Positions 14,729 to 48,527 of a stretch of 64,000 bases of DNA are shown piece after piece; positions within the stretch are counted from its first letter, which is position 1, and every line of letters begins with the position of its first letter. A model generated the notes under the pieces. It ran no database searches, was not told the DNA's origin, and was given only the letters and a program-made list of their open reading frames with translations. Both the position numbers and the translations under genes were made by a program. This stretch comes from Gamarada debralockiae (lineage: Eukaryota > Ascomycota > Leotiomycetes > Helotiales > Hyphodiscaceae), in contig NXFV01001601.1 of assembly GCA_002803225.1 (NCBI GenBank), forward strand, positions 62,001 through 126,000, read 5' to 3'.

Positions 14729-16909
14729 CTATAGCTCATCGTGGGTAGAAGGCTCATCATCTTCATCAGCACCACCTGCTTGGCTATACAGCTTGCTGGT
14801 AATGGGGTATGCGACATTCGAGAGCTTCTCCTTTTGTTCCTCGAAATCTTCGGTGGTGGCGGTGCCGGCGTTCTCTTCGAGCCAGTCCGTTGTTTCCTTG
14901 ACTGCTTCGAGAAGCTATTTCATTGTTAGTTGGTGATACTTAAAAGATTGGATTGGGTTTTGGCACTTACAGTCTCCTTGTCATCCTCGTCAATCTTGCC
15001 TCCAAGGCCCTCATCGTCATTGACTTGGTTCTTCAGAGAGAAAGCGTAGTTCTCAAGACCGTTTCGGGCCTCAATACGCTCCTTGGTAGCCTTATCCTCA
15101 TCAGCGTACTTCTCAGCCTCTTGAACCATGCGGTCGATCTCCTCTTGTGTGAGACGGCCCTTGTCGTTGGTGATGGTGATGGACTGAGTGTTTCCAGTGC
15201 CCTTGTCACCAGCTGTAACCTTGAGAATTCCGTTGGCGTCAAGCTCGAACGAGACTTCGATTTGAGGAACACCACGAGGCGCAGGAGGAATGCCGGTAAG
15301 CTCGAACTTTCCGAGTTGGTTGTTGTCCTTAGTCATGGTGCGCTCTCCCTCGTAGACTTGAATCAAGACTACTGGCTGGTTATCGGCGGCCGTAGAGAAA
15401 ATTTGGGACTTGCGGGTGGGAATGACGGTGTTCCTGGGGATCAGCTTGGTCATAACACCCCCGGTGGTCTCGATACCAAGGGTCAATGGGTTGACATCCA
15501 TGAGAACAATCTCGTCGGTTCCCTCCTCACCAGACAAGACGCCACCTTGAACGGCAGCACCAAAAGCAACAGCCTCGTCAGGGTTGATACCCTTGGATGC
15601 CTTCTTGCCTCCGAAGTACTCCTCGATCATTTCTTGAACCTTGGGAATACGGGTAGATCCACCGACCAATACAATATCATCGACCTCAGTCTTCTTGAGC
15701 TTGGCGTCCTTGAGAACTTGTTCAACTGGCTTGAGAGTCTTTCTGAACAAATCCATGTTGAGCTCCTCGAACTTGGCTCGGGTAAGAGTCTCAGAGAAAT
15801 CCTCGCCGTTGTGGAAAGCCTCGATTTCGATGCGGGTGGTCTTCTGAGAGGACAGAGTTCGCTTGGCCTTCTCAGCCTCACGCTTCAGCTTGCCCATGGT
15901 CTTGAGATCCTTAGTGATATCAACGTTCTTCTCCTTGTTGTATTTCTTGGCGAAGTAGTTGATGACTCGCTGATCGAAATCCTCACCTCCCAAGTGGGTG
16001 TCACCGGCGGTAGAAAGAACCTCAAAAACACCACGGTCGATAGAGAGGAGGGAGACATCGAAGGTTCCTCCACCGAGATCGTAGACAATTATTTGACGTT
16101 CTCCCTCAGTCTTGTCGAGACCGTAGGCAATGGCTGCCGCGGTAGGTTCGTTGACGATACGGAGGACGTTCAAGCCGGCGATGGTACCAGCATCCTTGGT
16201 AGCCTGTCTCTGGTTGTCGTTGAAGTAGGCGGGAACAGTGACGACGGCGTGGGTGACTTTCTTTCCCAGGTATGATTCGGCGACTTCCTTCATCTTTCCA
16301 AGAATCATGGCGGAAATCTCCTCAGGTGTGAAAGTCTTTGGGGAACCGTTCACATCAACTTTGACAGAGGGCTTGCCATCCTTCTCGACGACATCAAATG
16401 GGAAGTGCTTCATGTCACCTTGGACATCCTTATCCGAGAACTTGCGACCGATCATACGCCTGCGAACACCTGTCAGCTTGGAAAAGGCCACCTTTGAGGA
16501 AATGGCAGCTTACTTGACATCAAAGATAGTGTTCTTGGGGTTCGCCGCAGCCTGGTTCTTGGCTGCGTCTCCAACTAAACGTTCCTCATCGGTGAAAGCC
16601 ACATATGAAGGAGTGATTCGGTGTCCCTGGTCATTGACAAGAATTTCGACTTTGCCCTTCTGCATCACACCAACGCAGGAGTAGGTAGTTCCGAGATCGA
16701 TACCGATAACTGCATGGTAGACCTGTTAGCAGTTGCTCTTCATCTTCGCGGATAAGTTGCCACATACCAGTGCCATAGCTTTCTTGTAATGGGTCTTGGT
16801 CGCTTTGTGCGTGTGCTTGAGAAACAAGTGCCAAAGGAGAAAATAGAAGAATGAGGTAAAATAGAGCTGACAAGCCCATGTAAAATGAGCTGTTGTTTCC
16901 TCGCGCCAT
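14729..16909 (-). CDS. kar2: ER lumenal Hsp70 chaperone BiP/Kar2
   Basis: Folding and translocation chaperone of the endoplasmic reticulum. Four exons: 16909-16768, 16709-16514, 16459-14971, 14914-14729. Junctions are GT-AG with matching phases, giving 670 residues. A signal peptide with hydrophobic core [16 protein letters not shown] starts the protein. The ATPase domain has [14 protein letters not shown], the phosphate-2 motif [14 protein letters not shown] and the adenosine motif [11 protein letters not shown]. The substrate-binding domain is complete, and the tail is acidic and ends in the ER retrieval signal HDEL followed by TAG. The gene converges on the beta-galactosidase gene. Heat-shock-like GAA/TTC blocks lie about 290 bp upstream. 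Signal peptide and HDEL exclude a cytosolic Hsp70. Confidence 0.97.
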
Positions 16910-19250: not shown

Positions 19251-22200
19251 CTACGTCGACCACAGACAGAACCGCGACCAGACACTCCATGATCCGCGCT
19301 TGTTCCTATTACCATTTTGATGTTGATCCTGCTTGATCCGGCTCTTCTCATCTAGGGTTTCTAAAATGCGCTCAGAAAACCGAGGCGGAAACTTGTCGAT
19401 GACAACCTGCCTAGATAACGCTGCAGGATCCGCATCATGTGACAGCATCAAACAAATCACTTTAACTAAGAACTCCAACTCGACAACTTCTACAGAGCCA
19501 CGGGATAGTCCCTGGACATGCTGTACAAACTGCTTCCAGATGCTTTTGGATCGCCGTTGGCCATTCCGGAAGTTCGGGTCTGCGCCAGCACGGAGGAAAA
19601 CCTCAATTGTGTTGGGGTAGATAGACGCCGTGTGACGGGACAAATTCTGTCGAGTGGCTGCGAGCAGGAGACGGCCCCAGGCAGGATCGCTGCCACTCGC
19701 ATCAAAGTCTAGGTCCATGACATTCGCGTCTGCCCCCCGTGAGATGAGAAGTTCGATCAAATGATGGCGATGAAGCGCTGATGTGTGGCCGTCATCTGAA
19801 TCTCGTATATTCTCGAGCTCCTGCGCGTATAAATGCAGGAAACACCCCCAGACTGTGGAATCCGCGATCGTTTGATTAGGGTCAAAGCCTTGGTCTAAAA
19901 GAACCCGAACGACGTCCGTCAAGTCCGGCTGTCCGGCGGTATTGTTTGGACACATTCTCAAAGCGCAGTCGAGGAGTGGCGTTTTGATCCCTAGTGAACG
20001 AGCTCCTAAGCGGAGCTTTTCCTTGACGTAGAGGGCAAGTCCCTTTTGTATAGAAAATTCGAGGAAAGATCCACATGCTGGATAGCTGTTCTCATCGTTG
20101 TAATAGCTGGCGTCGTAGCATTTTCTGTACCAAGGAATCTTGCGGCCACTGGCTGCAGCAAAAATTTTAAGATTGTCATGGAGATCATCGAGGAGCTCGG
20201 TTTGCGGTTGGCCGGACTCAAGCTCCGCCTGCCGTGCAAAATAGAAGGCGTCCATAAGCATCTTAGACAATGTCCCGCCATCCTCGAAGTGCGTGCGTTG
20301 CAAGGGGATGCTTTTAACCAGCGCGACGTAAGCTCGCAAGATCGAAGTGTTGGGGCCGCATGTGGTATCATCCGTAGTCAGAAAATCGCTCATTTCCTTT
20401 GTCCGGAGAAAATCCCGGACGGTGCGATGGAGGAAGTCGACTTGGTGTCCTAGATAATACGGATCTAAGGAGGGGTTCCTGTAGACCTCTAAAAGGCCTT
20501 TACATCTCCCATTGAGCCGTCGGCGCATTTGCTCGTGTCGAAGTTCGATAACGTGGTCGGGCATTTGGCGGAAAGGCGCATTCAGCGCGAATTTCTCGTC
20601 TTCGAAGCCTTCGTCTAGGAAGGAGTATATCATGAGGGCCAGGGGGATGGGTGAGCACATGGCTACCTGAAATGTCCGAACCATCTGATCATGGTAAAAA
20701 GAATCGACAGAATTCAGCATATGCTTAAAGAACTGTTCCAAATCGGCCGGTAAGGTTCGAATTCTCCTTTGCAGATCAGCTAATGTATCACCGTTCGTAA
20801 GGCCTTCTTGGAGAGAGCGCATAACGAGGAAAACCCAAAGAAAAACTCCTTCGGCCTTTTTTGTAACTTCCTTTACAATATCCTTATATTGCGTGTCCTC
20901 TGAAGGTAATAGATCCCAATTTGGATGCTCTTCCAGTTTAGCTTTGACATAACACTTGATATCATTGCGCGTGAGGTCTTGGAGATAGAGTTTCCTCTTA
21001 GGGTTTCGCCCATAAGCATCCTCGAAGATGTTCCACGACCGACTTGAAAGACAGAGTTTGATATGCGACGACGTTGACAAGGTGCCCAGTATCCGTATGA
21101 CTTCTGCATGATCCCCGTCGTACTCATCTAGGCCATCGATGAAAAAGCAGAACTTGATACCGAAATTCTTACAGGCAGCCAATCTTTTTATGGCCTTGCG
21201 GAGTTCAGATAGAGTCCATGGCTCAGTATCTTTGCGGCCTTGTTGGGCAGCTACCCAACGATCTGGACAGATTTCTTCGATAACTATAGGACTTTGCTTA
21301 CAGATGTCGTAAAGAAGGGACCTGAGAAGACCCTCCTGTGATTTCTGCATCGGGGTGCCCACACTCCAGAAGAAGTGACTAGAAATAATGCACTTCCGTG
21401 GATACGCCCAAAGTGTGAGTGCCTCTTGTGCACGGACGTGATCGCAGAGGAACTTCATCAAGGTTGATTTTCCAGAGCCAGGCTTCCCAGAAACCCAATA
21501 AATGCCACCCTGAGCCTCAAGCCAATCGAGAAAGTAGACTCTGATGCCCCGTTTAGTGGCCTTTTCCGGCGACCTGAAAACCCAATTGAAGGTGTCCACG
21601 TATGCGTCTGCGATACTTTCGTGCCGTACTGTCATAGCTCTGAAGTGAAGGCTGCTAAGAATAACTTGCTCTGCTGCGATTTGACTTGCCATCGAAACCA
21701 AAATCAGGAGTCTTTCTGCCAGGTATCTAATATCTTTTAGATACAACTTCTCCTCTGGAGAAGGCTTGTCGTTGTTTTCCTTATCTAGACCAAGTCTGGA
21801 ATTCCTGTCATCGGTCGACGGCTCTTGATCTTCCGGTAATACGTCAACGGATGTGGCCCTGGAAGTCCTCAGATCCTTCTCCTGTCTAGTACTGGCATTG
21901 AGTCTTGAAATGTGGTTAGGGTCTCGTAATGCTGAATTACCATTCGGATCAGTCTCATCTTCGGAATCTGACTGGTGCTCCCAACTGAGAATGAGTTCGT
22001 TATCATTGTCATCACTAGTGTTAAGAAAAGGTATCTTAGGTTTCCCATTCGGAACACTCTTGCCGGCTGACCTCTTCAAGGATTTCGACGCCTTCGGGTC
22101 GTTCTCACTCTCTTGGGATCCTAAAATCTCATACTCCAGGGGAAAAGCATCGTTCTGAATCGCAATTCCATCCAAAGACACGTTGACCTTAGGGCTTTCC

Positions 22201-22850
22201 TTAGGCACAGGTTTCTCAAGTGGCATGCCCGAGATTTCTGTGAGGGAGTTGGAGACTTCTTCCAATTTTTTACTATGAGCATATTCTAGGAGCGTATTTT
22301 TCTCCTTAAGCTCCTGTAATTCTCGAAGAATGCTTGACTGATTGTCGCTGGGATGGGTCAGTTCCCAGGTGGGTTATAAGAGTTGGCAATGAGTAACTCA
22401 CTTGGAGATAGCCGCAAGATGAAGAGACAGATCAAGTTTGTATTTATTCAACTTTTGTTCTAAGCTCTTGACCTTGCCTTTTCCCCAAACGTTTCTCAGA
22501 GCTTGGCGGAAGCTGTTCAATTTCCTGTGAGGACCATCGTCCAAGGTCAACTTGCGCAGCGCAACCAAGAGTTCGTCTGCCATCTTCTTGCATGCCACTG
22601 CCATGCGCCTCAACGCCTCTTCGTTTTGGGATCGCCGGATGGTGTTGAATGTGGATTGTGCAGATGATTCGGCGAGGCTGGCACTCAGGCTGCTCAAGTT
22701 CACGTACACGTCTTCAAGTTCGGCGTGCTCAATAGTCGAACCCCGTGTCGATCTATAGATCTCAGAGCTTTCGGATATCAGTTTGGCTCCGAACTCGATG
22801 AACTGCGCCACGCTAGCAGCGAGGCTGAATGCGGAAAAAGGATCCATCAC
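19251..22850 (-). CDS. STAND/NLR-like protein: fungal N-terminal domain, NACHT NTPase, ankyrin-like tail
   Basis: Two exons, 22850-22402 and 22347-19251, with matching phase, giving 1181 residues (one less if the second ATG is used). The N-terminus, starting MDPFSAFSLAASVAQFIEFG, is the hydrophobic helix typical of fungal STAND effector-type N-terminal domains, followed by helices to about residue 150. A low-complexity charged linker comes next. The NACHT domain has a Walker A GKPGSGKSTL near residue 440 and a Walker B FFIDGLDEYD near 554. The helical region after it (about 650-800) resembles the domain usually found after NACHT in this subfamily. The tail has two or three degenerate ankyrin-like units, for example LLISRGADANV and FLRAGADPNF. 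Such proteins are candidate receptors for non-self or fungal programmed cell death. Ligand and output are unknown. Confidence 0.85.
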
Positions 22851-23998
22851 AATATTCCATCACTGAAAAGACTTGTGATGCTAAAATCACACCTCTAATG
22901 CTCTGAAATGACTTCAGATCAATAGCCAGCCTGGTTTCAAATCTCAAGATTAGAAGGAATGAGAAACGCGATAAGAGTGAGATGATCATTATAGAAATTT
23001 GAAGAATGCCTCAAGGCAGACATCACGAAGGAGCCTATTAGGTAATCTGTATTTCTGCAGGCTGTGCATTGCTGGCACCACTGATGAGAAAGTCACTCGG
23101 AAGCTACTGCCCAATGAGCAAAGCAAAACCACCACCATTGCACCGCCTCAATCAGGCGAACGGGGACAAGTCAAAATTTAGCCCTGCTATGTCCCAGGAC
23201 AGTCGCTTGCGAAACTGGCTTCCCCTTTTTTGCACAGCTGCTAGAACTTTTACCTTGCTCTTGACCAAGATCCCCGGACCAAACTAACCTAATATAGTTA
23301 AGCTTATGGTACCTAACCCTGTCACTTGTATTAGCTCTTGTTACTTGTATTATAAGATGCCCTATTTAAAAGCATCAAATGCATATAAGAATATGCATTT
23401 GTAATTATATTTGTAATATTGTAACAGCTACACGTAGCTGGAGGGCAGCAGGAGGGATCACAGTATATCAGAGAAGTAGCAGTAGGGGAAGAGAGACAAT
23501 AGTGGTTGTATTCCTGAGCATTCGTACGATTTGATTTCCGAAAAATACTCAAGCTTGCTCTTCTTTAAGGAGGGTTGACAAGCCTTACTTATACTTCACA
23601 TGGCAGCTGTACTGGCTGCTGACTCCGATTCCGAGCCTTCCGGGCTCCTGTACCTAGCCTGTTCCTTTAGGGCCTAGGCTCCTATTACAACTATAGTGTC
23701 TTGTCTTTATTGTTATAGCCTTTACCTTGTTCTATTTAAATACAATCTAATTTATAATATAGTACTTAATAAGAAGCTTAAGATTTATAAAATAGCTAAT
23801 GTTACTAGGTATAATAAGCGTTTCATTAAAGTAATATACTTAAACCTTTACTAATGTGGAGAAACGCGAAACCTACATTTTATTAATAACTGCCCCACTA
23901 TATAACTTAACGAAATCACCTCTAATTCAAGCCGCAGGTCACTCAAAACAATTACCTTGATTAGCTCTTTTAACTGATGTACGTATTTAGTATCTGCC
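22851..23998. other. Upstream region of the STAND gene, then AT-rich repeat-derived DNA
   Basis: The first 430 bp are the 5' flank of the STAND gene. From about 23290 to 23870 the sequence is AT-rich, full of stops and patchy in composition. It looks repeat-derived, but I could not define element ends. Confidence 0.4.
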
Positions 23999-36337: not shown

Positions 36338-39300
36338 TTACCTAGTACCTGGGATGAAAGCTGCTGCAATAGAGATTTGTCCTCTTCCTTGTACTTCACC
36401 GCCAGCTGGGTATCGCGCCTCCCATCTCATGTTACGTTCGCTTACAATCATGACTAGTTCATACTCAACCTTATAGTGTCTTCTTGCTTTGACGCCTTCT
36501 TCTGGCTCTACTGGCTGGATGAGGTTGCACTCCTTAAGAAAAGTCATATCAACCTCAATTACCCCAACAATTGCAGCTCCTACATTGTCAAATTATCAGC
36601 TAGAGGTCTCACTGTGGCTATTACCCTATTGTCCCTTACGCACCTTTGTTTCTCTTATGATTTCTCCGATAGTGGGATTCCATTGTATCATCTGAAACAA
36701 ACAGGACTTCCTTGCATTTGAAGGGCGTGCCTTCTTCTGCGTCAAAAATATAGAAGACTTGTATGGGATACTCTTGCTCAGTTGGGATCTCATCTCCCTA
36801 CAAAGATAGTAAGTAACAATCCTAAGGGTCTAGTTTTGATGTAGACTATAATACTAACCTTATTGATAAGCCACCAAATAGTATTCTTCACATACTTTCT
36901 ACCGTCCAAAGGCTCAGTAAACGGGCGGATTCCCCTGTGAGCAGGGAATACGTCTGGTTGATGTTCTTCAGTACACAAGAACCCGTAGCTAGAGCGGCTA
37001 ATACGTTTCGGACCGTCTTTCTTATTGAGAGCTCGAAGGACTGCTCCGGAAGAGACAGCAGTTTCGCTGCTATAGTAAGTCTCAATAGCAGGCAGATTGT
37101 TCTTGAGCACCTACGCAGTTTTGGGGACAATTAATGTGATATTATCTCTTTGATAGTTCCGCATCTTTGCGAGTTCTCTTGCCAAATATGACCGGAGTGA
37201 AGGAGAGTTGGCAAAGCCTCCAATGAGAATCACTTTCTACGTAACATTAGAGGCTTCGGATTGCTTCTTATAGATGGAGCTGGTGACAAACCTTCACATT
37301 TATCCCCTTCTCCTTTGCAAGCTCTAGTTGGAGTCTCATAAGAACGGCAACCCTCTCCAAGGTTGGGAGGAAGATTTCCTCCAGGTCAGAGCTATATTAA
37401 ATTTGTTAGTAAAGCCTTATTATCTGTGCCACTAGATATATCAGATTACTAACTGTTCAATCCTGACTCTATTATTAAGAAATCGCTTTTTGGGACTTAA
37501 GTTGGCCCGTAAGCCTGGTATGTAGATGATCTCAGATAGAATATTGGGTGCGACCACATCGAGAGATCTTTTCATTTCGTTTTCGAAAGCGATTACCTGG
37601 GAATCTATAATGCTTTCAATAGTTAAGCCGTTTACTTCGAGGTAGTCTTCACCCTCCAACCTAGCACGTAGATGCCTCCGAAATGCCTCGTTGAGATAGC
37701 TAGAACCGCAAAGACTGCCTTGGTCCATTTAGCATATTACGGAGCGATCAAGGAGGAGGTGAAACTTACCTCTTGCTTCGATACCCCCTGCTTGTAGTCT
37801 GAGGGGATAAGTTTTATCGACAGTATAGGTTATAGCGTCAACAGTACCTCCACCCGCATCAATAAGCACAAATGTTTCCTTGGGCTGCAAAGGTTAATGT
37901 TATACTTACGTTTTTACAGCAAGAGATTAGGAACTTACCAAAACTGAAGTAGTGCTTGCAAGTACATATGCTGCTGCAGCTTCGGGCTCCGAGACGATGA
38001 AGAGATTATTCACGCTACCGTTTTCTACACTACCGAACCCCGATTTATAGATAGCTCTTTCTATGTTTGTTTGCATTATTCGGCCGGCCTTTGGTGTCCA
38101 TATAGGCGGTACACAGAGGACAAACTCAACCGGGCAGGCGTCTAAGAAGTCGTGGAATTTTATAAGCTCGTCTTTGGCATGAGAAAAAAGATACTTGAGG
38201 TAGTCTGCAATGACGTCTTCGTTATATTTGATAATCTTCTCGCGCTTTAGTTCTTTATAGTTTGATTCGAGGTCGACTCTAACTTGTTGCGTATGATAAC
38301 TCTCGTCCAAGAGCAGCTTGAACTTCGACATGCGTCTGTTTGGATTGCGATTTGTATCTGGGAATCGTAGTTGTCTTTGGACTTTATAACCCCAGAAAGT
38401 ATCCTTGTTCTCTTCATCGTCGGCATCTTCACTAGTCTCCATGTCCGGGTCTTCATCTGGATCCTGATCTCTATTATGCATCCGATCGTCATCTAAATCA
38501 TCTATTATGATATCGCTTGGTCGGTTCCTCGCTTCCAAGAGTGAATGATCCAGATATACTTTCTTTGGATACCAAATCTCAGTAGGCACCTCCTTTCTCT
38601 TGCCCCCAAGTCCGAAACACGGCTCGTTGGGATAGTTGATAATGCTCTGGATTTGATCCAGGTAAATATGGGCATTTGGCTGGTCGTCTGTCCCAGTGTC
38701 TCTGGGGAGAGCGATAAACGACACCGAGGAATAAGTCGTTCCAAAATCAATAGCGACGATGAAGCGTTTGTCGCTTGTTAGCCCTCCTGGTGGCGTTCCT
38801 GCATCAGACATCTCAATATCCGCTGATGACCCGCGGACAGTGGAACCTCCTCGTACAGTTGGCGTTGATCCTGTTCTGAATCCTTTGGGACTGTTGAGCT
38901 TATCATTCTTTATAAACCCCCATAATCTGATTTTGTCATCGAATAGCTTCTTCCTATGAAAAGTCTTAGCTGATTTCTAACGGCGAGGACCAAGAAAGTC
39001 ATTGGGGAAAGATTCAAAGCATACGTTATCGAAAAGTGATATCGATTTTTGAGAATATTCGCAACATCGTGAAAAGTTTTGTTTTCGTCGATATACAAGC
39101 GCAGTATGATAGGCTTTATCCGTTCCCATTCCTGAGCAGGAATTCGCTGCATGTACTTTCTGGTTGGTGAAGTTGACAGGATCCAATTATTCCCTATGAG
39201 GATCGGATCGGTGATTGAAGTCGCCTGAAGTGAATCGTTGTGCGGCGATATTGAGGCGGGCGCTCCAACATACTCATCGTCATGTTTTCCTTCGCTGTTA

Positions 39301-41082
39301 AAATCAAACACTCGGGGGTTGCCTTCAAAATCGTCGATTTTGTCATCACATGATGTCTCAGATTCAGTCCCCCATTTACCCCTGGTCTCCGTGTGTTTCG
39401 TGTTAGTCGGGCTCAATGTGTCTGAGCCACGGATATCAGGGTCATGCTTTACAGAAGATTGAAACGGGAAACTTTGCTTTACTTTCACATCACTCTCCAC
39501 TGATTCCTGCTTGATATGCTTGGCTGCAAGCAGATTAGGCGAAGCGACTCGGCCGAGCGGGATGATAGCGGGGTCATCAGGGAGATAAGTCCAGACAGAA
39601 ATCGGCAGTGAGACTAGAAGAAGGGTAGAGTCGCATTTGAACGCTGCCTCGACATGCACCGATGCAATATCCGCAGGCATTGTTCGCAGCCAGTCGACGA
39701 ATAAACCAGGTGACAATTCGTTGTAATGTATGTCTTCCGTGAGTCTGACTGCTAGAAGCATCCTGGGAGCATCTGATTCCCAACACGGATCCTGCTCTTT
39801 AGGCCAGTGTGGAATAGATGAAGGAATACTGTGAGCAGTGGCTTCCGTCTTTTCTTCCTGCCTTTTATGAAGCCCTTGGCCCGCAATTGTGTCTTGGTTG
39901 GAGGAGAAATCACCTTCCAACGCCCTTGATGACGATAAATTAGATGATTCGACTGGATATTGAGAGTCTTTACCAAGACGTGGATGCTTGCTTAACGGCA
40001 CTGGTGAGTCGCCTGTTGAAGGCCGTTTCCGATTAGCCGACAAAACTTCAGGATGCAGGCCCTGGGACACCCCAATCTCCTCGGCTGGATCTTTCGTTGA
40101 AGAAGTTCTGTTGGTAGTAAGCTGTATGCCTCTCGGGAAGTTTTTGTCTGATCTCAGAGAAAGGTGAGTAGGTGGCGGATACTGTTCATTGGCGACACCT
40201 TGAGATATATAGGATTGGCTTCTTCGGAACATGCCGGCATAGAGCTCCCCAATGGAAAAGGACTTTCTGTGGCTGGACTCTATCTGCCGCGCCATTTCCC
40301 TCAATTGAATAATCAAGGAGTTTGTGAATGAATATTGCCCGACGCCATTGGCCTTATTAGCCCAGGGACAAGCTGCTAAGAGTTCAGTCACACCATTACC
40401 TTCTCCCCCGTCGACGGTGCCGGCGTGGCAGCAATCCAGTAGTATCAAAGCATCGCTCTGGGCTTGTTGGAGAACTGCTTGTATGGCTGTCCAGGTCACC
40501 GATGCACATTTATCGTTTGTCTCCGAAGCCCTAAAAACGCAGTAAATATCAGAAGACATGGTTACTGCGGAACATAATTGATGGCACATACCTAGCCCAT
40601 ACAACCTCTTTTGCCTGCGACAATCTTGCGTGCCCTCCATAATATACAATCTTCAGATCTGCCGGGTCATCGTTATTCATCTCAATGAACTCTATGATCT
40701 TGGTGTTGACTTTAATATGACTTCTTTCATCCGGAATCTTGAATTCTTCTACATTGTAGTGATAGAGGTCCTCTAAGACTCTCCGCAGGCCTGAGATTTC
40801 GGAATCAACAGGTAGTCTCTCGTCCCCGCTAGCCCACGAAAACATCAAGACGTAAACATTCGTATATCTCGAGTGGTTCGGGGAAGGAAATGCCGTCTTC
40901 ACTGCTCTCTGGAGTTGCTTCCCAAAATTCTGCATGTTTGTATGTTTGAGCGTCCGCGATAACTCTTCGGGTCGAGGAGGAGGAGAGGGTGAGGAGAATG
41001 AAGTCGAAGAGCTTCGCATTTCGTCAAATCCGGAATCGTTCGTGCCCGAGTCGCCATCTTCTTCCACGTTGCTAATAGACAT
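36338..41082 (-). CDS. Caspase-Clr5-Hsp70 fusion protein
   Basis: One gene of ten exons: 41082-40592, 40530-39025, 38953-37939, 37884-37770, 37718-37454, 37391-37292, 37236-37115, 37069-36859, 36797-36644, 36579-36338. All junctions are GT-AG and all phases agree, giving 1406 residues. Residues 70-330 are a caspase-fold (C14) domain with the His in YYGGHA (about 151) and the Cys in LLDCCHAG (about 198). A linker includes a small folded segment (WTYLPDDPA). A Clr5 domain follows (about 632-682); its second half lies beyond an intron (39024-38954), and F to W spacing across the splice is the expected 14 residues. The last 690 residues are an Hsp70/actin-type ATPase: DFGTTYSSV, LIDAGGGTVDA and VILIGGFANSPSL. 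Two shorter genes could be predicted, because the Clr5 exon reads through its intron to a stop at 38910 and an internal ATG exists at 38811. The role is unknown; a proteolytic switch coupled to a chaperone-like sensor is speculation. Confidence 0.82.
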
Positions 41083-44683: not shown

Positions 44684-47600
44684 TTAGAAAATAGCAGCTT
44701 TCATATCATCAAAACACACCTCATCCGAGTCAGCATGTACTTCTGTTCCTATCTCTGTGGAGTCAGAGTCGTCATCCTCATTGTCAGAAGATACATCCTC
44801 CACCTTTCTCCTCACGCGTTCGCTTTTCTCTGCACTCACAATCGTAACATTGAATCCTCGACAAGCGAAATCAGCGTCCCTAATCTTGGCCATCAAAGCT
44901 TCTAATCTCTGTTCATGAGGCTTGTGATCAAACAAGGGAAGACGAGATAGTACCAAATCGAGGTATCTGAGCACCTGTTCGCAAAGCTCAATGAGAGACT
45001 TCTCGTAATTCTCTTCCAGGCTCATACTATGCCATTGCTGATACATACTCTCCAGTACATTATATCTAGCCACTAAAGCCGCTACTTCAGATAACTCCTC
45101 GAGGGTTTGGCTGTCTCTCACTATCTCATAAGTCGATCGACTTTCCAACAATTTCTAAATCTGCCAGTGAGCATGATGGGAGGTCGCTGGTGGGATTTCC
45201 CCGTACCTGTTCGGTGTAGCATAAACATGTCCACACGAAGGCACAGGTCTTGAAATTTAGCGTCTCCTGCATGACCTTCAGAATCTCGTGATAGCGGCCG
45301 ATTAACGAAACAGTTGAAGTCGTGGTTGCAATTGGAGTTTCAAGTAGTTGCATTCGTGCCTTCCCTATAACGAGTCGCAGTCTAGTCGCGGCCAGACGTG
45401 CCACTGTATCTTCCGAGGCGCCTAGGGAGACATGTAGATTTTCATGAGCTTCTGTCCAAGCTTTGGATAAATTTTTGGAGTTTTCGAGGTCACCAGCTCG
45501 GAGTTGTGCGAAAGCTCGCATCCAAAGATCCTTGTTCTGCACGTTGGAAGGGAAGTCTTTGTGTATCTGACGGTTGACTTGCTCTTCATTCTCGGGTGAA
45601 CTCTTCCCATACGGGATGTTTGCAAGCTCCTTGTTCGGACTGTTCTCTGACCATTGTCTCCAACCTGAGAACAAAGGCTGGTCTTGGCTTCGTGCTAGAG
45701 GGAGACTCTGTCCATCTTGCATGAAAGACACTGGCTCAAAGATGCGAGTTGGACTGGCGTTGATATCACTAGGAGCAGGCTTGATCTCTGAATTACTAAA
45801 ATTGGGTTCAGTGGTGAATTTTAACTCTGTCTCAGTCTTTGGGGGGTCTCCTGATGGTCGATTGCCTGCCATGTCAGATGACTCCGTGGCGAACTTTGCG
45901 GGATGGGCGCAATCAGAACCAGAGCAATCCCTTCGTGAATCCCATTGGAAGGAAGGAAACGGTGGTACATCGGTCTCAGCCTCTGGGATCCTCAAGATAG
46001 GGGGGGTTCCAGGATCAAGAAGATCGAAGGAGACGTTACTCCTGCCATCGGACGATGCTCCAGTAACGTCGGGTGAATCTGTAGGGCGAACCTTGACAGT
46101 ATCCGCTACATTTGTTCCTACCGGTACTGTTATGCCTCCAGAGCGTTGTAAAGGAAGAGGTATGGAATCGTTAACCCCAGGACGAGAACCATCATATGAG
46201 TATGAGTAATATGACTCTTCACTCCATCCTTCTTCGCCGTACTCTTGTATCGACATGTTGTCTCCGGTGTACGTGGGATAAGCAGTATAAGCATTCGAAT
46301 CAGTGGGCGAAGAAGTCTGATAAGTGGTCGCTTGATAGTATGCCGTAGGCCAAGTCGTGGAACCTTGAGGCGGATATTGCGTCGGATTGTTGACAGGAAT
46401 GCTCGGTGCGTAGACAGTTTGACTCCAAGAACTAGAGGCTGCTGCTGATGTACTGTCCACTGCCCCAAGTCATCAGTATTTTATGCCTTGAGCAATGAGG
46501 TACGAGACTAACCGATGACTTCGGGATGTTTGGTTTTCATATGGGCTTTGAGTCTTGATGCCCGTTTGGTGCCTTCGTAGTCGCAGCCAGGCTGAGAACA
46601 GAACTTCACTTCTCCATGTCTCTCCTCCTCATGCCTCGTGAGGTCTCCCTTGCGTCCAATGCTGACATTGCACCCAGGGACAGAACAGTGAAGACGATTT
46701 CGAGTCCTTTGCCGAGTATTCATTTGGCTAGGTAGAGTTGTGCTGGCTTTGCGGTATGTTGGAAACTCCTCGCCCCTCAAAGGCAGAAGAGAGGAAGTTC
46801 TTGCATCTTTATATGCGATAGACTCCGGGGGCGGAAAGGGCGATAGCGAAAGATGCCGTTCTTCACCCTCTTCACTCCCTCTCTCCAGCTCCAGATTGTT
46901 CAGATCAGGCAGAGGCAATATAGAAGCCCAAGATTCAGCGGCTGCACGATTCATATTGAATCTTTTCATAGCTGTTTCCACCATCTCAGCTCTCCATTCT
47001 GCGATAATCGGATTCGGCTGCGCTAGAGAACGATCTGTGGTGTCATTTGAGAGCAGCTCTGAAGATTTGTTCGATAGCACTGTCTGACTACCTCGCAATG
47101 CACTCTGTCGACCGGCTAATATCCCAGTAGTGTATTTTGGAAGCGGCTTATCGTAGGGCTCGCTAGGATACAATTCTTTGTTCTCTGATTGAACATTTGA
47201 GCAGGCGTGAGGTTGCCCTCGTTCGGGCTGATGGTTAATCCCGTCAGACAGAGTAGACCCCTCATACTCGAGAGTTTCCTCGCTAATGCGGTTGCTGCTA
47301 CTCTCTGTACTTTGGGGATGCTGGTCGTCCTCCAAATAAAGGCCTGTAAGTTCCGGATCATTGACATCTTGTCTTGAAAAGGGTACTATAGAAGGACTCA
47401 ACGGACTCCATAGCTTGAGGAATTTGCGTGAAGATATTGGACTTTGGCAAGGCAATGGCGGAAATAAATAGGGAAGCACTAGGCTGTTCCACCTCCCTTG
47501 ATGTGGTCCTAATAGGACTTTGGGTGGCGCAATGTAGTGAGGTTGTTGATGACGATAATGATCGCGAGGCATCGGGTGGCTCTGCCGCCTTTTCAGAAGA

Positions 47601-48254
47601 ATCCAAGCTTCTCTGAGTCTCCACACTGGTTTGAGTGACCCAGGGAACAAGAGTGTTCCCAGACTCTGTCGACGATAGACATGATTCAGAACTCTGGCCC
47701 GCTGAGATACCCGCCAGCTTCCTCCTCGCCTCCTCCATCTCCTCCGCAGTCTCTTTCGAAAGCTGTTCATCCTTCGGTCCCTTCAGCAAACTCGGATTAA
47801 CCACGCCCATTGAATCCATCATATGGTCAGCTTTGAGAGCGCTCAACAAGCTCAGCGTTCCCATGAGGCTCAATTTCAAATCCCTCAGCCTCGCCAACAA
47901 CTTCATGATCTCTTTCTCCTTGAACACCCATTTTACTCGGGCCAGGAAGCTCCTGCTCCTTAACTTTCGTAGAATACGGTCGATTTTGACGCATATTGAT
48001 GCACAATCACCAATGATTTTTGCTGTGAGTCGGTACACTCGGTCCGAGTAGCGATGTGTCTTGTCGTTGAGGAGGCTTGACAGGAGATGCAGCTCTTCTG
48101 AGAATGTCTCAAGGTCCCTTGCCAGGTCCTTGATATCTGATGGAGCATTGGATAGAGCATCTCCGACCTCATAAAGCGTCTTTGAAATGGAGTAAACGGT
48201 CGCTGCTAGCTGCAGTACACTCGCGACAGATCCGATCACCTCGAGGCCCGACAT
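44684..48254 (-). CDS. Protein with HeLo-like N-terminal domain and two C2H2 zinc fingers
   Basis: Four exons: 48254-47387, 47343-46513, 46459-45207, 45154-44684, giving 1140 residues. The first junction is the least certain: I place a 43-nt intron at 47344-47386 because it links the two frames in phase, but a slightly longer intron there would also fit. The start, MSGLEVIGSVASVLQLAATV, is the hydrophobic helix of the fungal N-terminal (HeLo/STAND-type) family and is followed by about 130 helical residues. After a disordered stretch come two C2H2 fingers, CSVPGCNVSIGRKGDLTRH and CSQPGCDYEGTKRASRLKAH. A long disordered region and a C-terminal all-helical domain (about residues 830-1100) follow, ending in an acidic tail. 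HeLo-type domains are known membrane-active cell-death effectors in fungi; joined to DNA-binding fingers the role is unknown. A decayed gene of similar style lies next door. Confidence 0.78.
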
Positions 48255-48527
48255 CGTGGCTCATGAAAATTTGGCAGTCGTTCAATCCACGGCCCGGGGT
48301 GAATCATGCGCATCAAACCGCGCCATCGCTGGTATAGATTGCTCTCAGAGAGACATTTAAGAATACACGCATTTTCATAGAGGCCGAATTTATGTGCGCA
48401 GAGGAGTTGTCGAAGTGGATGAAAATTCGCAAGGCTGATCGCGGCGCAGCCCGTGCGTTGGGCTATAGAGGTACATAAATGGACTGTTTTTTTCTGGATG
48501 GACTAAGTAACATTTGAACACTCGAAG

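Follow-up and report, generated by a model that had tools for sequence, protein, structure and literature searches.

Whether a caspase-type protease, a Clr5 domain and an Hsp70-type ATPase can be encoded by a single fungal gene, and what such a protein would do, are questions raised by a locus of the ascomycete Gamarada debralockiae (assembly GCA_002803225.1, contig NXFV01001601.1, positions 62,001 to 126,000; these 64,000 nucleotides are referred to here as the window). The gene lies on the minus strand at window positions 41082-36338, and a first-pass annotation made from the DNA alone had read it as an executioner protease under the control of an Hsp70-like sensor or clamp. The computational analysis described here supports one gene and places it in a modular family: a constant N-terminal unit, made up of a caspase-like putative protease with a His-Cys pair and the domain that follows it (here called CTD), is joined to exchangeable C-terminal parts, two of which are clearly copies of free genes from the same genome. 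In the window member the exchangeable part is Clr5 together with a divergent Hsp70. We give a probability of roughly 45% to the reading that the exchangeable, often host-derived tail acts as a bait or docking site that switches the caspase.

The proposed reading frame was borne out by the gene model, in which ten exons separated by nine GT-AG introns (45-71 nt) are all in phase and predict a protein of 1406 residues followed by a stop codon (Table 1). Intron 2 falls within Clr5 and, as had been claimed, completes it: without splicing only positions 2-39 of the Pfam profile match (45.6 bits), whereas the spliced sequence matches positions 2-54 of 54 (residues 629-681, E 1.3e-15, 57.7 bits), with the conserved F and W 14 residues apart across the splice. 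This E-value and the in-phase exons rule out a chance reading frame. In six of eight Clr5 relatives from the same genome, the best-scoring splice was in phase 2 with the Trp 11 residues further on, identical in phase and position to intron 2 of the window gene; in the other two (L004 and L005) the best split was in phase 0 (splice choices were scored against a Clr5 consensus typed by hand). A phase-2 intron with the Trp at the same distance can also be found in two caspase genes with Clr5-like ends, C109 and C647 (43 kb; C handles denote contigs), for which a random control gave 1.65% of 2000, a guide only, since its donor range was narrower than that of the scan. The joined Clr5 pieces of these genes score 26.2 bits for C109 and 18.5 bits for C647, the latter below the cut-off of 22.3. 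We strongly infer that the splice joins two halves of one Clr5 domain.

Alternatively, the locus could hold two adjacent genes, of which the caspase gene would stop near 38910 and the Hsp70 gene begin at an ATG near 38811. The unspliced caspase-side frame does stop at 38910 and an in-frame Met stands ahead of the Hsp70 part of the predicted fusion; furthermore, the majority of the Hsp70 homologues found lack a caspase. However, two genes would cut Clr5 in half exactly at the usual intron of the Clr5 family, and the stretch ahead of the Hsp70 part (DAGTPPGGLTSDKRF) looks by eye like that of a caspase-Hsp70 protein of Hyaloscypha described below, which makes this arrangement very unlikely. The in-phase exons and the placement of the Clr5 intron give good support to a single caspase-Clr5-Hsp70 gene.

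The caspase part matches Pfam Peptidase_C14 at residues 95-205 (E 1.6e-4, 21.9 bits against a cut-off of 21.4), a partial match covering profile positions 25-134 of 233, and both catalytic residues noted at first pass are present, as His151 (YYGGHA) and Cys198 (DCCHAG). Comparison of profile A2 with solved structures, which bears on the caspase fold, gave no match at E 0.1. In Pfam scans of the window protein, no family matched the CTD, and no NB-ARC or NACHT core, leucine-rich repeat or CHAT domain was found at E 1. Conservation was surveyed in 20 genes of the same genome, a subset of the paralogues, where the catalytic Cys is kept in all and the His in 19; in a set of 55 public proteins, the Cys is kept in all 24 that align over it and the His in all 15 that align over that position. 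Such wide retention of Cys and His suggests that most family members experience selection on protease function.

This family is large. Genome searches scored the best candidates only, and protein searches scored about 8000 candidates sharing most words, the counts being lower bounds. The first 502 residues of the window protein gave 103 matches in the genome, counted by exon, and the CTD alone gave 35, the window among them. The reading frame runs on past the CTD for at least 60 residues in 29 of 33 genes and for at least 100 in 23 of the 33 (C133 is included in this length measurement and lies outside the tail scan, as do places on C226, C884, C313, C494, C106, C336, C842 and C353). A tail domain above the Pfam cut-off was detected in 12 of 35 scanned genes (window counted), representing 11 families: Clr5 in the window gene and in C109, Methyltransf_23 in C348, HLH in C1104, Vts1 in C671, CBFB_NFYA in C1019, DUF7514 in C933, Myb in C689, Zn_clus (Zn2Cys6) in C271, DUF2838 in C403, bZIP_1 in C743 and WD40 in C762. 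The bZIP_1 and Myb scores barely exceed their cut-offs (27.7 vs 27.6 and 24.7 vs 24.4), and the tails of C1104 and C671 extend beyond their loci.

Many of these tails are DNA-binding domains, and in the proteins inspected long low-complexity linkers separate the CTD from the tail. Both features would suit a latent effector, in which the caspase unit senses a signal, cuts the linker and frees a C-terminal transcription factor, enzyme or Hsp70. However, no cleavage site is known, and tails such as DUF2838 (by eye a many-helix membrane domain) are no obvious soluble effectors; we regard this explanation as unlikely. C689 and C935 have caspase matches without a CTD match. In-frame stops lie within the CTD of C762 and inside the caspase match of C689 (an intron or decay). 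The family might be a set of by-products of duplication and recombination, chimeras of which some are decaying and whose pairings have no selected function, as the stops in some members (C762; others may be introns) and the many members without a recognised tail would suggest. It is quite unlikely that this accounts for the family, given retention of the Cys (20/20 and 24/24), long open frames, and the recurrence of both caspase-homeobox-rhodanese and caspase-Hsp70 combinations, the latter in Hyaloscypha.

The origin of some tails can be traced within the genome. NF-YA occurs three times (C138, C515 and the caspase fusion C1019), DUF2838 twice (C594 and the fusion C403) and Vts1 three times, one of them the fusion C671, while DUF7514 matches lie on four contigs, one being the fusion C933. 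Fused and free NF-YA are 85% identical over 93 columns (nonsynonymous divergence, dN, 0.19; synonymous divergence, dS, 0.85), and fused and free DUF2838 are 67.5% identical over 317 columns (dN 0.25, dS 2.07), pairwise values that cannot tell which copy is constrained. By these alignments the NF-YA and DUF2838 tails are clearly copied from genes that also exist free in this genome. The third NF-YA, in C515, is 79% identical to the fused C1019 copy (82 columns) and 78% identical to the free copy (294 codons). Upstream of it, and on its strand, is a stretch that resembles PigL_N (E 3.5e-4) and SesA (E 0.007), with introns or gaps in between (L081, C515:10700-13600). Because both of these matches are below cut-off, they do no more than hint at a second capture of NF-YA by another death-type module. 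On C594, the free DUF2838 gene (18279) is about 24 kb from the best free Vts1 match (42118), and the fused copies are on different contigs; this may be chance.

The C-terminal part of the window protein had been described as a full Hsp70-type ATPase. Its nucleotide-binding motifs stand: a pattern search for PHOS1, CONNECT, PHOS2 and ADENO placed them at residues 732, 987, 1013 and 1167. Kinship was also supported by a profile of 15 Hsp70 homologues (alignment A3, led by the Hyaloscypha protein P0001, window protein left out), which matches the nucleotide-binding domains of DnaK (E 1.2e-9) and mitochondrial Stress-70 (E 1.4e-9). The part nevertheless misses the Pfam HSP70 cut-off (13.4 vs 20.6 bits) and is, judged by these matches, a divergent Hsp70-type relative, which we take to be HSPA12-like. 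Public relatives are about 29-68% identical among the strong matches. The fungal HSPA12-like Hsp70s belong to the same sequence family, but most lack a caspase, whereas the window protein and P0001 have one. In the Gamarada genome, window Hsp70 matches lie on 12 contigs, of which only the window's own is also in the caspase list. The window also contains a canonical Hsp70 gene (Pfam HSP70 match of a 205-residue piece, E 8e-93), at a distance of 20 kb from the divergent gene. Among the public Hsp70-type relatives, P0028 (Talaromyces stipitatus) shares its annotated chain with an adenosine deaminase, which would reflect either a further fusion or two gene models run together, and P0008 and P0014 (Fusarium) have long N-terminal parts with a precomputed PF26082 match.

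The nearest Hsp70 found belongs to P0001 of Hyaloscypha variabilis (1028 residues), a deposited gene prediction whose caspase half retains the Cys and is followed by a CTD and then Hsp70; Clr5 was looked for in it and not detected. The pattern that the first pass had set against a fusion, with homologues regularly split over two genes, was not seen: P0001 is annotated as caspase plus Hsp70, although most of the Hsp70 homologues found have no caspase. The Hsp70 of P0001 is 67-68% identical to that of the window, compared with 32% for the caspase and 37% for the CTD, and its caspase and CTD are up to 68% identical, over short stretches, to Gamarada paralogues. Because the Hsp70 parts are close and the P0001 caspase belongs to a different subgroup from the window caspase, either the caspase and Hsp70 lineages have changed partners or they came together on two occasions. 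Conversely, P0002, P0007 and P0013 have caspase parts 52-59% identical to that of the window, yet carry other tails.

A profile search of public proteins identified at least 26 with the caspase module. Eight of these contain rhodanese, and seven of the eight a homeodomain as well (both in P0033, P0038-P0042 and P0044; rhodanese only in P0035; domains of P0033 and P0035 are from our own Pfam scan, those of the other homeobox-rhodanese proteins precomputed). The named sources of this group are Achaetomium, Thermothelomyces, Rhypophila, Nemania, Xylaria and Podospora appendiculata. Other public tails include HET in P0013, RasGEF in P0045 (Coleophoma), a methyltransferase in P0047 and a GMC oxidoreductase in P0051. 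Because the caspase and homeobox-rhodanese combination recurs in public proteins of several genera, assembly chimeras are ruled out as a general cause. Homeobox-rhodanese proteins are a known class of regulators that includes M. oryzae HOX4, P. anserina pah7 and N. crassa NCU00100 and that influences conidia size and the distribution of perithecia (PMC5666362); the eight public proteins share the caspase module with the window protein and differ from it in the tail. The words "caspase" and "peptidase" are absent from the main text of the homeobox-rhodanese papers probed, that one included. In the part of the open PubMed Central (PMC) literature covered, which does not extend to subscription journals or preprints, no description of the caspase-CTD family was found, and this large family with exchanged tails is apparently undescribed.

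These recurrent fusions raise a different explanation, that of a guided protease whose tail is an address directing the caspase to its place of action, be it a complex or a site on a chromosome (the NF-Y complex, Hsp70 clients, promoters), where it would trim partners as part of ordinary regulation. Several tails bind DNA or partners (HLH, NF-YA, bZIP, Zn_clus, Myb, Clr5), and the homeobox-rhodanese fusion recurs across Sordariomycete genera in a class with developmental roles (PMC5666362). However, the wide spread of tails among paralogues, together with the exchange of partners between caspase and Hsp70 lineages, looks more like a shuffled repertoire than a set of stable regulators, and we consider a guided protease rather unlikely.

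Under the bait reading, the tail, which in several members is a duplicated host protein or host-type domain, would be engaged by a damaged partner or by a factor that is foreign or non-self, and the caspase would thereby be switched on; the activated caspase would then cleave a substrate and so bring about regulated cell death or an inactivation that stays local. In the window member, the trigger would depend on ATP binding by Hsp70 and on a contact of Clr5. The mechanism first proposed, with Hsp70 as a dedicated sensor or clamp, is not specifically supported: since related caspase modules bear many unrelated tails, the window Hsp70 looks like one exchangeable tail among them, and the Hsp70-clamp reading is therefore too specific. 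A cell-death or immune role, still hypothetical, is plausible. Several observations weigh against the bait reading. Of the scanned genes, 18 of the 35 have no tail domain recognised by Pfam (C1087 at 11 kb, counted here, has only a sub-threshold zinc-knuckle match, over the CTD); and five more have only sub-cut-off tails, namely WD40 and Clr5 in C647 (43 kb), C2H2 in C702 (45 kb) and C793, Zn_clus in C988 (minus strand) and Myb in C44. In C1087 the catalytic His is replaced by a gap in the alignment. For the window Hsp70, in contrast to NF-YA and DUF2838, only distant free relatives were found in the genome, the best being 46% identical over the first part (C31). Finally, the caspase and homeobox-rhodanese fusion recurs in eight public proteins, and the developmental role of that class fits regulation better than a decoy.

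In plants, integrated-domain nucleotide-binding leucine-rich repeat receptors (NLRs) join a constant immune module to changing host-derived domains, as described by the integrated decoy model. The caspase family may work like these receptors, some of whose added domains are likewise copied from the same genome, without being a member of their class (see also PMC4246468): the window protein lacks NB-ARC, NACHT and leucine-rich repeats, its candidate executioner, a caspase, is in the same chain, and its immune function is hypothetical. Fungal NLRs are also modular, with swapped N-terminal domains (PMC4986451), and some include a caspase-related CHAT protease (PMC10197012); theirs combine CHAT, NOD and repeats, whereas here a C14-type caspase and CTD precede a single host-type domain. 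Bacterial conflict systems with an Hsp70 component are a distant precedent (PMC7159879). Clr5 proteins share the complete domain and its usual phase-2 intron, but Clr5 is mid-chain in the window protein and N-terminal on a repeat protein in the C571 relative (by eye). It is possible, though doubtful, that these proteins form a distinct eukaryotic class of sensor-executioners, single-chain caspases with no NLR core and with host-borrowed bait domains that make up a reshuffled surveillance repertoire in ascomycetes. If the bait reading is right, fungi would hold a set of caspases into which host-derived domains for sensing or targeting have been built, comparable to the integrated-decoy receptors of plants but lacking an NLR core and having the executioner in the same chain. 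Fungal caspase-like proteins would gain defined inputs, at least some homeobox-rhodanese regulators would be recast as caspase fusions, and the tails would point to host processes that may be attacked or regulated (NF-Y, the DUF2838 membrane protein, Vts1, Hsp70).

Table 1. Window coordinates of the caspase-Clr5-Hsp70 gene and of neighbouring features
Feature	Position	Strand	Remarks
Exon 1	40592..41082	-	Residues 1-163, phase 2; N-terminal caspase part; His151 at 40632-40630
Exon 2	39025..40530	-	One open frame: Cys198 (40430-40428), remaining caspase, CTD, first half of Clr5 (39137-39025)
CTD	39522..39779 (approx.)	-	Conserved domain of ~85 residues after the caspase, common to the family
Intron 2	38954..39024	-	GTATGC...TCATAG, 71 nt, phase 2, within Clr5, 11 residues before Trp
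Exon 3	37939..38953	-	Second half of Clr5 (38953-38908), linker, start of Hsp70 (PHOS1 ~38757)
Exons 4-10 together	36338..37884	-	Rest of Hsp70 part, including PHOS2 and ADENO motifs
Exons 4-7	37884-37770, 37718-37454, 37391-37292, 37236-37115	-	Continuing Hsp70 part
Exons 8-10	37069-36859, 36797-36644, 36579-36338	-	End of Hsp70 part; stop 36340-36338
Canonical Hsp70 gene	14926-16509	-
NPHP3_N/NACHT-type open reading frame	22373-19251	-	DUF7791, ankyrin match
SesA-type open reading frame	22859-22398	-	31.2 bits vs cut-off 26.3
PigL_N-type open reading frame	48260-47358	-	Below cut-off
HET open reading frame	57327-55216	-	E 4.3e-31

A transfer RNA scan of the window found no tRNA. The SesA-type and NPHP3_N/NACHT-type reading frames adjoin each other and are probably parts of one fungal NLR-type gene (19251-22859, minus strand). 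The PigL_N-type frame is overlapped and followed by one with C2H2-like finger residues, also below cut-off, and the two may perhaps join a death-type N-terminal part to a DNA-binding tail (46508-48260, minus strand). With the HET (heterokaryon incompatibility) frame, the SesA, NPHP3_N/NACHT and PigL_N frames lie within 20 kb of the caspase-Clr5-Hsp70 gene, all on the minus strand, and by these predicted domains the neighbourhood is rich in incompatibility-type genes.

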